Shown here: positions 45,327-52,739 of the stretch, one piece after another
How positions within the stretch are numbered: position 1 is the first letter of the stretch
Layout: every line of letters starts with the position of its first letter
Assembly: GCA_009783235.1 (NCBI GenBank)
Contig: WRHN01000001.1
Location: 62,001 to 126,000, forward strand
Source of the DNA: Candidatus Saccharimonadota bacterium
GTDB lineage: Bacteria > Patescibacteriota > Saccharimonadia > Saccharimonadales > Saccharimonadaceae
DNA: 64,000 bases
Reading direction: 5' to 3'
Position numbers and translations under genes: made by a program
The notes under the pieces: model-generated
What the model was told of the DNA's origin: nothing
What the model saw: only the letters and a program-made list of their open reading frames with translations
Databases searched by the model: none

Positions 45327-45635
45327 AAAAAGGTACTCAAGGGCAATAAGAGGATGCCTAGACATATACTACCGATGAAGGACGTGAGAGGCTGCGATAA
45401 GCTTCGGGGAGCTGCCAATAAGCTTTGATCCGGAGATGTCCGAATGGGGAAACCCGCCGTGGGGAAAGCCACGGGCACGGTTAAGTGAATTCATAGCTTA
45501 ACGCGAGGAGACCGTCTGAACTGAAACATCTTAGTAAGACGAGGAAAAGAGAATAAATAATGATTCCGAAAGTAGTGGCGAGCGAAATTGGAACAGCCCA
45601 AACCTTTTAAGTTTCAATCATATCTTACTTTGCTT

Positions 45636-46055
45636 ATGCACCGTTGACCAAAGCACGGGATTCTCCTGGGTGAGTTGTTAAAGTCGCAAACTTTGGTGCA
45701 CAGCAAAGCGAAAACGAGTTGGTTTACAGTGGTAGTTGGATTGTCCATAGACACCAGTACCCCCCCGCGCTTATCGCGCGCCTACCGCTCGTTTTCATCG
45801 ACATGTAGCTCAAGCAGAGCGCTTTGTCGGTCGCTATAGTGGCCAATAAAGAGGTGGGGGCTCGTATCCCTTCATGTCGACCAGCCCTGTTAGCTTAAAG
45901 CAAAGCGTTCACCTAGGGGGTGAAAGATTTCTAGGTGCAAATCCTGGACAGGGTACCAGAATACTTAAGGCGTGCTTGCGCGTTTTTCTGGTAGGGCTCC
46001 TTATGGGGCACAAAAGGCGAGGGCGCGCTTTAAGCGCCCTCAGCCTCATAAAATC
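45636..46055 (+). other. 23S intervening sequence 1 (domain I) with tRNA-like domain
   Basis: The insertion sits at the tip of a long helix: CAATCA..TCTTACTTTGCTT (45615-45635) pairs with its complement at 46056-46076. Inside are several perfect stems, for example GAAAACGAG/CTCGTTTTC, TCGACATG/CATGTCGA, CCAAAG/CTTTGG and GAGGGCGC/GCGCCCTC. It has no credible reading frame and no group I core (P7/P3 motifs) that I can find. A complete tRNA-like cloverleaf occupies 45884-45958. It is probably a structured expansion that is either kept or excised by RNase III at the base stem. Confidence 0.85.
45884..45958 (+). tRNA. tRNA-like element inside 23S (Pro-AGG-like)
   Basis: All four arms fold. The acceptor GCCCTGT pairs with ACAGGGT, followed by A and CCA. 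D-stem is GCTT/AAGC with a 6-nt loop that lacks G18G19. The anticodon stem is TTCAC/GTGAA with loop CTAGGGG: U33 is present, the anticodon would be AGG (Pro) and position 37 is G. The variable region has 6 nt. The T-stem is CTAGG/CCTGG with loop TGCAAAT, which keeps T54, C56, A58. The missing GG in the D-loop and an A34 anticodon argue against a normal bacterial tRNA-Pro. A tRNA mimic or a captured, decaying tRNA is more likely. Confidence 0.6.
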
Positions 46056-47104
46056 AAGCAAAGTAAGATGTGATTGATATGGCTTACCGGCCAATGCTTA
46101 AGGGTGTTGTGAGTTAACATAATTTTAGGATTTAGGACTTTCATTTGAGAGTTTTAAATCTTAAAACCAACAGCGGTAACTGAGTGGATAATGATACAAA
46201 TAACATTGCTAGTAGAAGGAACTGGAAAGTTCCGCCAAAGACGGTGACAGCCCGGTATACGAAAGTGGTGTTGACATTATGTATGTTTTCTCGAGTAGGA
46301 CGGGGCACGAGAAACCCTGTTTGAATCTGGCAGGACCACCTGCCAAGGCTAAATATAGTATATGATCGATAGCGAACTAGTACAGTGATGGAAAGGTGAA
46401 AAGAACCCCGGGAGGGGAGTGAAATAGAGCCTGAAACTTATTGCCTACAAGGAGTCGGAGGGGGCTTGTCCCCTGACGGCGTGCTTTTTGTAGAACGATC
46501 CAGCGAGTTAATTTTATGTGCAAGGTTAAGCCAATTGGCGTAGCCTCAGTGAAAGCGAGCCTGAATAGGGCGACTCAAGTACATAGGATTAGACCCGAAA
46601 CCGGGTGACCTAACCATGAGCAGGCTGAAGCTGCCGTAACAGGTAGTGGAGGGCCGAACCGTAGAGCGCTGCAAAGCTCCCGGATGACTTGTGGTTAGCG
46701 GTGAAATGCCAATCGAACTCGGAGATAGCTGGTTCTCCTCGAAATAGCTTTAGGGCTAGCGTCATGTGATATTTGTTGGGGGTAGAGCTCTGAAAAGGAC
46801 TGGGGCTGGAAACGGTACCCACCCTTATCAAACTACGAATACCGATAAAAACTATCATGGCAGTCAGAACGGCGGAGCTAAGTTCGTCGCTCAAAAGGGA
46901 AACAGCCCAGATCATCGTCTAAGGTCCCTAAATATACACTAAGTGGGAAACAAGGTGAAATTTCTTAAACAGCGAGGATGTTGGCTTAGAAGCAGCCATT
47001 CATTTAAAGAGTGCGTAACAGCTCACTCGTCAAGAGATTTTGCGTGGAAAATGTAACGGGGCTAAGTGTATTACCGAAGACATGGACTTCTTGCGATGAA
47101 CAAA

Positions 47105-47716
47105 GTTTATGATATAATGTCAGCATGACAAAAGCGATTTTGATTCACGGCACATCAAGTAAAACGAGTATTACGATACGCAGTTTCCAACAGCAAGTAA
47201 TTCTCATTGGTTTCCGTGGTTATCGAAGGAGTTAGTGGTTCGCGACATTCATGCAGTTGCGGCCGAAATGCCAAACTCATTTTACCCTGTGTATGAAATC
47301 TGGAAACAAGAATTCGAACGCTTCCCGCTTGAAGATGACACGATTTTAGTCGGCCATAGTTGCGGGGGGGGGGTTCCTTATACGTTATCTAAGTGAGAAT
47401 AATGTAAAAGTTGGAAAAGTAGTTTTTGTTGCGCCATGGCTCGGAATAACTAAGACGGCCGATACAGAATGGTCAAATACGCTTGATGAAAACTTCTTTA
47501 AATTTGAAATTAACAGGAAGTTAGTTGACAGAACCGACGGAGTTTTGTTGTTTGAATCGACAGACGATGAAAGTCCTATCAAGGAAAGTGTAAAAATCTT
47601 GAAAGATGGAATCGACAATATGAAGATTACAACTTTTGACGATAAAGGACACTTTACTTTTGAAGATTTAGGAACAGTTGAATTTTCTGAATTACTTAAC
47701 GAAATAATTTCATAAA
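47105..47716 (+). other. 23S intervening sequence 2 (helix 45) with protein gene
   Basis: The insertion caps helix 45, a known site of bacterial 23S insertions. The stem TTGCGATGAACAAA (47091-47104) pairs with TTTGTTCATCGTAA (47718-47731). The interior is a promoter plus a hydrolase-like reading frame on the rRNA strand. The flanks match normal 23S (GGGGCTAAGTG before, GTGGTAGAGGAGCGTTC after). Confidence 0.9.
47125..47715 (+). pseudogene. RBBP9/YdeN-type serine hydrolase, frameshifted, inside 23S
   Basis: From ATG 47125 to TAA 47715 there are exactly 197 codons' worth of bases, the normal length of a RBBP9/YdeN alpha/beta hydrolase. The pieces read MTKAILIHGTSS, then HWFPWLSKELVV, EDDTILVGHSCGG (nucleophile elbow), VVFVAPWLGITK, and TTFDDKGHFTFEDLG (catalytic His). 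They lie in three frames: one base is missing near 47162, and a run of ten G at 47364-47373 has one base too many. The two shifts cancel. TATGATATAAT precedes ATG by 6-7 bp. It is either decayed or two homopolymer/sequence errors hide an intact gene. Confidence 0.75.
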
Positions 47717-49027
47717 TTTTGTTCATCGTAAGGAGTGGTAGAGGAGCGTTCCTATCGGCTGTGAAGCCAGATCGTGAGGTCTGGTGGAGCGTTAGGAAGT
47801 GAGAATGCTGGAATGAGTAACCATAAGGCAGGTGAGAATCCTGCCGTCCGTAAGAGCGAGGTTTCCTGGACTATCGTAATGATTCCAGGGTTAGTCGGGC
47901 CTAAGCCGAGGCGTATAGCGTAGGCGATGGACATCAGGTTAATATTCCTGAACTGGCAACAGCTTAGTTAACGATTCACATTTAATAATCAGGAGCGGAT
48001 TCTTGGTATGTATCCGTCTAACCGTGTGTCCCTTTTGGGCGCCGGGAATGAAACGATTTCTTCGGAAGTCGAATTCCTGAGGATAGGATGGCAAGAAAAG
48101 TCAGTTAACATGTGGTTGTGGCCACCCGTACCGCAAACCAACACAGGTGCTCGAGTCGAGTAGACTAAGGATTACGAGAGAACCTTTGCTAAGGAACTCG
48201 GCAATACAGCGACCGTAACTTCGGGATAAGGTCTGCCTCCACACCAAGTGTGGTAGCCGTGATTTCTGCAAAACAAGACAATGTCAGGAAAATTCAGTGA
48301 TGAATTTCTAGTGGAAATTGCGACGTGCTAACACATTTAGTGTGGAGGCCGCAGCTAAAGAGCCCACGGAACTGTTTATCAAAAACACAGGTCTCTGCTA
48401 ACACGAAAGTGGATGTATAGGGGCTGACTCCTGCCCAATGCTGGAAGGTTAAGGTGAGTGCTTCACGGTGCGAACTGAAGCCCTAGTCAATGGCGGCGGT
48501 AACTATAACCGTCCTAAGGTAGCGAAATTCCTTGTCAGGTAAGTTCTGACCCGCACGAATGGAGTAATCATGTGGGCACTGTCTCAGCAAAGGACTCGGT
48601 GAAAGTGCATTGGCGGTAAAGATGCCGTCTGTCCGCACCAGGACGAAAAGACCCCGTGGAGCTTTACTACAGCTTCGCATTGTTGTGGGTTCTAACATGT
48701 GTAGTATAGTTGGGAGACTTTGAAGCTGATACGCTAGTATTGGTGGAGTCGCAATGTGAAATACCAACCTTGTTATAATTTACATCTAACTTATGCCGTT
48801 ATCCGGCATGAGGACCGTGCGTGGTGGGTAGTTTAACTGGGGCGGTTGCCTCCTAAAGAGTACCGGAGGCGTTCAAAGGTTGGCTAACTACGGATGGAAA
48901 TCGTAGTGATAGTGTATACGCAAAAGCCAGCTTGACTGTGAGGAGTACATTCCGATCAGAGACGAAAGTCGGAGTAAGTGATCCGCTGGAATAACATTAT
49001 GTTAATGCATGTGGGAGTGCCAGCGCA

Positions 49028-49060
<33 letters not shown>

Positions 49061-49092
49061 TATAGCGCCCAATAGTTCACATAGACGGCGCT

Positions 49093-49212
<120 letters not shown>

Positions 49213-49538
49213 TTATATCCGGTGTGGACGTCGAAACTTGCGAAGATTTGCCCCTAGTACGAGAGGACCGGGGTGAACGCACCTCTGGTGTATCGGTTGT
49301 GGCCACCTGCCGCATTGCCGAGTAGCTATGTGCGGATCAGATAAGCGCTGAAAGCATATTAAGCGCGAAACTGACTTCAAGATTAGGTTTCCTAGGACAC
49401 TAATAGACGATTAGTTTGATAGGCGCAAGGTGGAAGCATGGTAACATGTGAAGCTGAAGCGTACTAATAGTCCATCGACCTTTTTTGCTACAATGAACTC
49501 AGGAAAAAGTGTGAACTTTGTCTTGAGCTCATTGTTAA

Positions 49539-51650: not shown

Positions 51651-51993
51651 GTTAGCCCGCTGGGCGACCGACGCTTGTGATTTTGCACAAGAGTAGGAAA
51701 GTCTGGGCAGTGCAGAGCGCGACAGTCGCTAACGGCGACCGAAGGTAACTTTAGGGAAAGTGCCACAGAAACGAAACTACCCGCAAGGGAAAAGGTGAAA
51801 CGAGTGCGGTAAGAGCGCACAACCGCGCGCGGTGACGCGTGAGGTAGGTAAACCCTGTTGACTGCAAGGAGATCTGACCAATTAGCTGCTCGCTAACAGA
51901 TCGCATATCCGCTTGAATTTGTCGGCAACGGCAAGTCTAGATAGATGGTTGCTTCTCGCAAGAGAACAGAACCCGGCTTACAGGCAGGCTAAC
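51651..51993 (+). ncRNA. rnpB: RNase P RNA, bacterial type A
   Basis: P1 pairs GTTAGCC with GGCTAAC. The conserved blocks are all present: GAGTAGGAAAGTCTGGGC, GACCGAAGGTAACTTTAGG, AAGGTGAAACGAGTGCGG and TAAGAGCGCAC, and ACAGAACCCGGCTTACAG. TGTTACAAT is the promoter, 11 bp upstream. An intrinsic terminator follows. Confidence 0.96.
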
Positions 51994-52000
51994 TATCATT

Positions 52001-52026
52001 AACGACTCGGCAATCGAGTCGTTTTT
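52001..52026 (+). terminator. rnpB terminator
   Basis: Perfect stem AACGACTCG/CGAGTCGTT with a short loop, then TTTTT. Confidence 0.95.
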
Positions 52027-52056
52027 GCTCTGTTTGGGCGATTGTGATACAATGAT

Positions 52057-52175
52057 GGTGTCTTAATTTATCACAACTATGGGTTTTGTGGCGCTCAAGA
52101 TGGGCACCGCATAAACCGCCGAGCGCTAAGCTTAGTTGTGAATGGAATTAAGACACCTTGCGGTGTCCTTTTTGA
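52057..52175 (+). promoter_or_regulatory. Attenuator-like structured leader with pseudoknot
   Basis: TACAAT (52048-52053) sets the start at about 52059. The RNA begins with GGTGTCTTAATT (52057-52068), the perfect complement of 52146-52157. Inside, CACAACTA/TAGTTGTG (52072-52079 with 52133-52140) forms P2. Within P2, GGTTT/AAACC (52082-52086 with 52113-52117) and GCGCTC/GAGCGC (52091-52096 with 52121-52126) interlock as an H-type pseudoknot. The 3' strand of P1 alternatively forms GACACC/GGTGTC followed by CTTTTT, an intrinsic terminator. P1 and terminator exclude each other, as in a transcriptional riboswitch. The next gene is at 52212. Confidence 0.6.
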
Positions 52176-52211
52176 TATCGCTGATAAAAATTAATTCATA
52201 TAGGAGGTGAT

Positions 52212-52739
52212 ATGAAAGAAGAAAAAAGTAAGAAAAGTGGTCTGGTAACAGCTGGGTTTGTACTAGGCATCGTGGCAATAGCTACCAGTTTTATCCCTAT
52301 TATCAACAACGCTTCAATAGTGTTGGGCGCACTGGCAGCGATATTTGGCGTTGTCGGTTTAGTTAAAAGAGCAGGGGCCAAGGCCGTCGTCACATTGATT
52401 CTCGGTGTTATTTCTGTAGCCATTGCTATATCAATGCAAATTTCTTTAAGTAATTCTCTGGATAAGCTGTCTGAGGACATAAACAATGTTGTTGAAGAAG
52501 CAGCACAGTCCGACATTAACGCTGACGAAATTTACGATAAAATTGTTAACGGCATGACTAAAGATGAAGTCAGCAGTGCGGTAGGCAGAGAAATTGGTAG
52601 CTGTAGCGAGTCTAGCTATGAAATATCTGATGTCACATATACAACGGAAACTTGTTCGTATGGTAATGCTCTAGCAGAAAACGGCTATGTGTCAGTTACG
52701 TTTAGCGACGGCAAGGTCTCGAGCAAATATAAAAATTAA
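52212..52739 (+). CDS. Membrane protein with DUF4190-like helices and extracytoplasmic domain
   Basis: The first 85 residues hold two or three helices (SGLVTAGFVLGIVAIATSFIPIINNASIVLGALAAIFGVVG) of the DUF4190 type. The outside part (EIYDKIVNGMTKDEVSSAVGREIGSCSESSYEISDVTYTTETCSYG) resembles SmpA/BamE-like folds, in which a KIxxGMTxxEVxxxLG helix is typical, with a probable disulfide between its Cys residues. TAGGAGGTGAT is its ribosome binding site. It lies under the attenuator-like leader. Confidence 0.7.
   Translation: MKEEKSKKSGLVTAGFVLGIVAIATSFIPIINNASIVLGALAAIFGVVGLVKRAGAKAVVTLILGVISVAIAISMQISLSNSLDKLSEDINNVVEEAAQSDINADEIYDKIVNGMTKDEVSSAVGREIGSCSESSYEISDVTYTTETCSYGNALAENGYVSVTFSDGKVSSKYKN

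Follow-up and report, generated by a model that had tools for sequence, protein, structure and literature searches.

A probable transcription attenuator of a previously uncatalogued Patescibacteria RNA family, with a core complementary to its own terminator

What controls the gene for a predicted membrane protein that follows a short structured leader in a Saccharibacteria genome, and to which class does this leader belong? Patescibacteria are a huge group of ultrasmall host-dependent bacteria, and to our knowledge their gene regulation is almost unknown. The window analyzed here, a stretch of 64,000 nucleotides of contig WRHN01000001.1, carries at 52057-52175 a leader in which a sequence-only reading had seen a riboswitch-like attenuator with an H-type pseudoknot. 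The element probably acts in cis as a transcription attenuator and belongs to an RNA family of Patescibacteria not catalogued before. Sequence comparison argues for this assignment through the promoter position, the helices P1 and P3, the terminator and a pairing between core and terminator (PA), and in most members also through the pseudoknot helix P4.

Every helix named in the sequence-only reading is present in the window where it had been placed (Table 1). These helices exceed chance: the leader has a folding energy of -48.5 kcal/mol, where dinucleotide shuffles reach -29.6 +/- 3.7 (5.1 sd below, with 0 of 200 as low), the terminator one of -8.8 kcal/mol, where its shuffles reach -1.7 +/- 1.3 (z -5.6), and the anatomy recurs with covariation in relatives. 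Two of the earlier descriptions hold in part. The 3' strand of the 12-bp P1 is indeed shared with the terminator, by six bases in the window and by only 3-4 in most relatives. The GGTTT/AAACC helix is real but forms only the outer half of a longer P4, in which GGTTTTGTGG (52082-52091) pairs with CCGCA (52107-52111) and AAACC (52113-52117), leaving one base bulged. The TGTGG of M1, the 5' strand of P4, is similar to the TGCGG of the terminator.

The -10 box of the window follows the hairpin of an RNase P RNA gene, so that the first transcribed base is expected at or next to P1, where the transcript had already been predicted to begin. This spacing is kept: a -10 box precedes P1 in 78 of 78 nonredundant relatives, at a distance of 4-7 nt in 75 of them, compared with 34% in the control. 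The leader promoter is missing from the list of a simple promoter scan because its -35 box is poor. The RNase P RNA gene lies directly upstream of this promoter (51652-52023 with the hairpin); the gene itself ends at 51996, and its terminator-like hairpin occupies 52001-52023. Further upstream, a 23S rRNA match at 45327-49487 extends over 4161 nt, as against a model of 2925 positions, with about 1.2 kb of intron-like insertion(s) inside.

Table 1. Parts of the leader and the gene behind it (positions in the window).
Feature	Position	Strand	Basis
-10 box TACAAT (extended, TGA before)	52048..52053	+	sequence
P1 5' strand GGTGTCTTAATT	52057..52068	+	sequence, relatives' complementarity
P2 5' strand TCACAACTA	52071..52079	+	sequence
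M1 = P4 5' strand GGTTTTGTGG (GGTTT + TGTGG)	52082..52091	+	
P3 5' strand GCGCTC; first G common to P4	52091..52096	+	
Core strand AAGATGGGCACCGCA; partner is M1 (P4) or terminator loop/3' arm/U-tract (PA)	52097..52111	+	
AAACC, outer portion of P4 3' strand	52113..52117	+	
P3 3' strand GAGCGC	52121..52126	+	
P2 3' strand TAGTTGTGA	52133..52141	+	
P1 3' strand AATTAAGACACC; final six bases are the terminator 5' arm	52146..52157	+	
Intrinsic terminator GACACC-TTGC-GGTGTC-CTTTTT (hairpin and U-tract)	52152..52173	+	
PA 3' strand, inside terminator	52159..52173	+	covariation in relatives
Ribosome-binding region AGGAGGTGAT	52202..52211	+	sequence
Controlled gene, 175-aa predicted membrane protein	52212..52739	+	

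The central feature of the leader, PA, was overlooked in the sequence-only reading. In the window, the core pairs with the terminator at 14 of 15 positions; across the family it is complementary to the terminator loop and 3' arm and usually to part of the U-tract too, a helix of 10-17 bp, with a best match of 9-17 positions in every leader examined. In an alignment of 15 leaders, 99.3% of the cells are paired, and double-sided changes occur in 10 cells as compared with 2.9 in shuffles. Among 62 diverse leaders, 92.8% of the cells are paired, 8 of 13 pairs have changes on both sides, and the double-sided changes amount to 80 cells, with 24 +/- 7 expected from shuffles; sliding the partner along reduces pairing from 93% to 40-57%. 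The paired strands include CACCGCA/TGCGGTG, CACCGTG/CACGGTG, CACCACGC/GCGTGGTG, CGACTCGCG/TGCGGGTCG and CAACTTTG/CAAGGTTG, and where the U-tract is interrupted as CCTATT, the core reads AATAGG (L096 and L114). At fixed PA positions, G-U pairs outnumber A-C combinations by 95 to 3, as expected for an RNA transcribed from the leader strand, in a tally that is mildly biased because the registers were picked by best score before the pairs were counted.

Since the core is complementary to the terminator loop and 3' arm, terminator and antiterminator are mutually exclusive, and the leader thus contains the conserved antiterminator by which an attenuator is recognized. Calculated with no pseudoknot penalty, PA has the lower energy in 78 of 78 leaders, with a mean of -20.9 kcal/mol as against -7.3 kcal/mol for the terminator hairpin, and the competition between them is therefore real. 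A point against the attenuator is that PA must form just as the 3' arm is released, a kinetically difficult task when the competitor is a local hairpin. An antiterminator that pairs with the 3' half of the terminator is not the usual arrangement, and the earlier description of the layout as standard misses it.

The remaining helices are supported to different degrees. In the relatives, the complementarity of P1 lies far above that of partners swapped between leaders (score 11.6 vs 6.5), as does that of P3, and P2 is fused with P1 in distant relatives. P4 is 5 bp or longer in 66 of 78 relatives and consists of diverse yet complementary sequences (TTTTATTCGGA/TCCGGATAAAA, TGGAATCGGT/ACCGGTTCCA, TGCGTGA/TCACGCA). 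It is only moderately separated from swapped partners (win rate 0.71) because the cores are similar, and it is not evident in leaders of the subtype found in Saccharibacteria genome G220. The terminator hairpin is conserved; its pairs vary little, so that its own covariation is modest, with a few covarying changes such as GACGCC/GGCGTC and GACAACC/GGTTGTC. The pseudoknot and the overlap of the terminator with P1 are kept with covariation in homologous leaders.

These pairings suggest a switch. Transcription would start at P1, and the loop of P3 would hold the core, which could pair either with M1, forming the pseudoknot helix P4, or with the terminator, forming PA. Capture of the core in P4 would allow the terminator hairpin to form and the gene would be off, while with a free core, PA together with P1 would keep the terminator from forming, and the polymerase would read into the gene. 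Given that the 3' arm is shared by terminator and PA, the core by P4 and PA, and several bases by P1 and terminator, the outcome should depend on events during transcription. From the architecture we infer termination and read-through, a default state and a balance that something shifts.

How widely is this anatomy distributed? When 101 relatives were searched with the leader by BLAST, many genomes each gave several matches that were short and strong, and the aligned relatives have in common the core GGCACCGCATAA and the terminator region. A full-length MAFFT alignment misplaced the 5' strands of P1 and P2, and the covariance models therefore span P3 to the U-tract. The model E-values are rough, and the large searches scored the best candidates per genome, so that all prevalences and copy numbers are lower bounds: with model R1, at least 139 of 394 genomes of the window's Saccharibacteria-type family (E <= 0.01) and at least 62 of 345 genomes of the order (E <= 1e-4); with the broader model R2, at least 22 of 41 high-completeness family genomes, in 21 of 38 genera, and at least 23 of 380 genomes sampled from the phylum as a whole.

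Beyond the family, copies occur in other members of the window's order and class as well as in several further Patescibacteria families, and the matches that were read there keep the layout of promoter, P1, P3, core, P1 3' strand, terminator and U-tract. G771 is a weak case among these, and a match in G674 (L173/L213) was excluded for lack of the family anatomy. Nearly universal among the inspected copies are a -10 box located a few bases upstream of P1, a P3 loop holding the core, and the terminator. Of the 31 stretches that a pattern scan of named genomes found, nearly all carry Saccharibacteria or Patescibacteria in their titles; the exception, titled Oscillospiraceae (L144, JAIRYC010000063.1 of G930), comes from a small contig in an assembly of 2 Mb and is probably misbinned. 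A scan of viral contigs gave no family match. The window's own genome holds a second copy (G000:C1:48870-48962); a third match (G000:C1:221935-222044) has neither promoter nor P1, is apparently other sequence and was rejected.

According to automatic ORF calls, a same-strand gene, usually with a ribosome-binding site, lies within 80 nt in 62 of 75 cases, and the element therefore has the position of an attenuator, a promoter-proximal leader with an intrinsic terminator before a same-strand gene. The product of the window gene has no confident Pfam family and, contrary to the suggestion of a DUF4190-type gene, no DUF4190 match. Pfam families among 90 downstream proteins include Fib_succ_major (9), DUF4352 (5), List_Bact_rpt (4), TM2 (3), OmpA (3), Ltp lipoprotein (2), T4SS pilin (2) and several restriction-modification enzymes; the controlled genes mostly encode surface or secreted proteins, and no common metabolic pathway was found among the 90. 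The highest number per genome occurs in G220, where a third model matches about 39 non-overlapping sites, again a lower bound. The 20 downstream proteins compared there belong to related secreted families, mostly of 490-610 aa, whose closest relatives are mostly about 40-70% identical, and in 23 G220 leaders the sequences of P1 and P3 differ widely and are complementary in each case. Several G220 copies (e.g., among L228-L251) lie at contig ends.

The sequence-only reading had been unable to match the leader to a known class, and this agrees with the databases: against the 4227 families of Rfam 15, the window and 18 relatives gave nothing at the gathering threshold and only chance-level matches at permissive thresholds. 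It had named two outcomes that would tell against it, homologous leaders without covariation and an Rfam hit to a known class, and neither was seen. A literature search, with preprints and most subscription papers outside its scope, found no description of the RNA family. Riboswitches that control terminators by means of H-type pseudoknots, e.g., preQ1, fluoride and guanidine-IV, are alike in the 5' leader, the pseudoknot and the mutually exclusive terminator and antiterminator. However, the family shows neither an Rfam sequence match to them nor an unpaired pocket common to all subtypes, and its antiterminator takes the 3' arm and U-tract instead of the usual 5' arm. T-box leaders likewise attenuate transcription and have an ACCGCG-like core, whereas the present family has no specifier stem or UGGN antiterminator bulge and its core has the terminator loop and 3' arm as partner; with no match to the Rfam T-box model, this identity was rejected.

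What, then, would shift the balance? If the leader were a classical riboswitch for a metabolite or an ion, its P3/P4 pseudoknot would be the aptamer, and a ligand would fix the core in P4 and turn the gene off. An H-type pseudoknot does adjoin the terminator, and [AG]CA occurs in the core-P3 loop of 83% of 78 leaders, compared with 45% in shuffles. The motif is, however, present in 0 of 23 G220 leaders, no unpaired pocket is conserved across all subtypes, conservation falls almost wholly within the mutually exclusive helices, and the downstream genes lack the shared pathway that is usual for the class, if not strictly required. A riboswitch is thus unlikely, and of the terminating ligand sensor originally proposed, the terminator leader is supported and the ligand sensing is conjectural. 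It is possible, and here suggested tentatively, that a protein, a small RNA or another leader acts in trans by binding M1 or the core, thereby releasing or blocking the terminator. Many dispersed copies with the same core in one genome would fit a common regulator; on the other hand, no candidate was identified, and cores can differ between leaders of one genome (G003, G112).

Other readings dispense with attenuation altogether. A stand-alone small RNA whose 3' end lies at the terminator and which refolds so that PA shields this end would account for the element having its own promoter and terminator and for the usual covering of part of the U-tract by PA. It would make the downstream gene incidental, though, which is very unlikely in view of the nearby same-strand genes and their ribosome-binding sites. 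The multiple dispersed copies, often near contig ends, might recall a DNA-level element such as an attC-like recombination site or a mobile repeat, yet the tolerance of G-U and not A-C, the fixed promoter spacing and the terminator U-tract belong to a transcribed RNA, and a shared mobile gene was not seen; such an origin is hardly conceivable. An integron attC site proper was rejected, as DNA-strand folding without wobble bias and without a promoter was not what was found. A leader-peptide reading with GCATAA as stop codon, checked by eye, fails in several relatives (e.g., L032 and L005).

For the attenuator family, the G220 expansion raises the further idea that the switch is a phylum-wide common control of variable surface genes, and that in G220, where the leaders of dozens of paralogous secreted proteins have one core and terminator in common, it changes the choice of expressed surface protein, with leaders perhaps influencing one another in trans; this is quite unlikely at present. 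The vlhA genes of mycoplasmas, a multigene surface-protein family with a common leader in a host-dependent bacterium, offer a comparison: in both cases many paralogous surface genes each have the same upstream control element, which in G220 takes the form of a structured RNA containing a terminator and not of a DNA repeat tract. A recurrent RNA control before surface and secreted genes would give a handle on host-facing surface change in Patescibacteria, and the element would offer a built-in regulatory part for their genetics. The switch architecture, in which an upstream strand would capture the 3' half of the terminator, is moreover rich in natural variants to study. Two variants in copy arrangement were also noted. 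G003:C28 (L066 259-538) contains two complete tandem leaders with separate promoters about 190 nt apart, and L211 has a second terminator-like GGCACCGCAAGGTGTC hairpin with a T-run some 20-45 nt past the leader.
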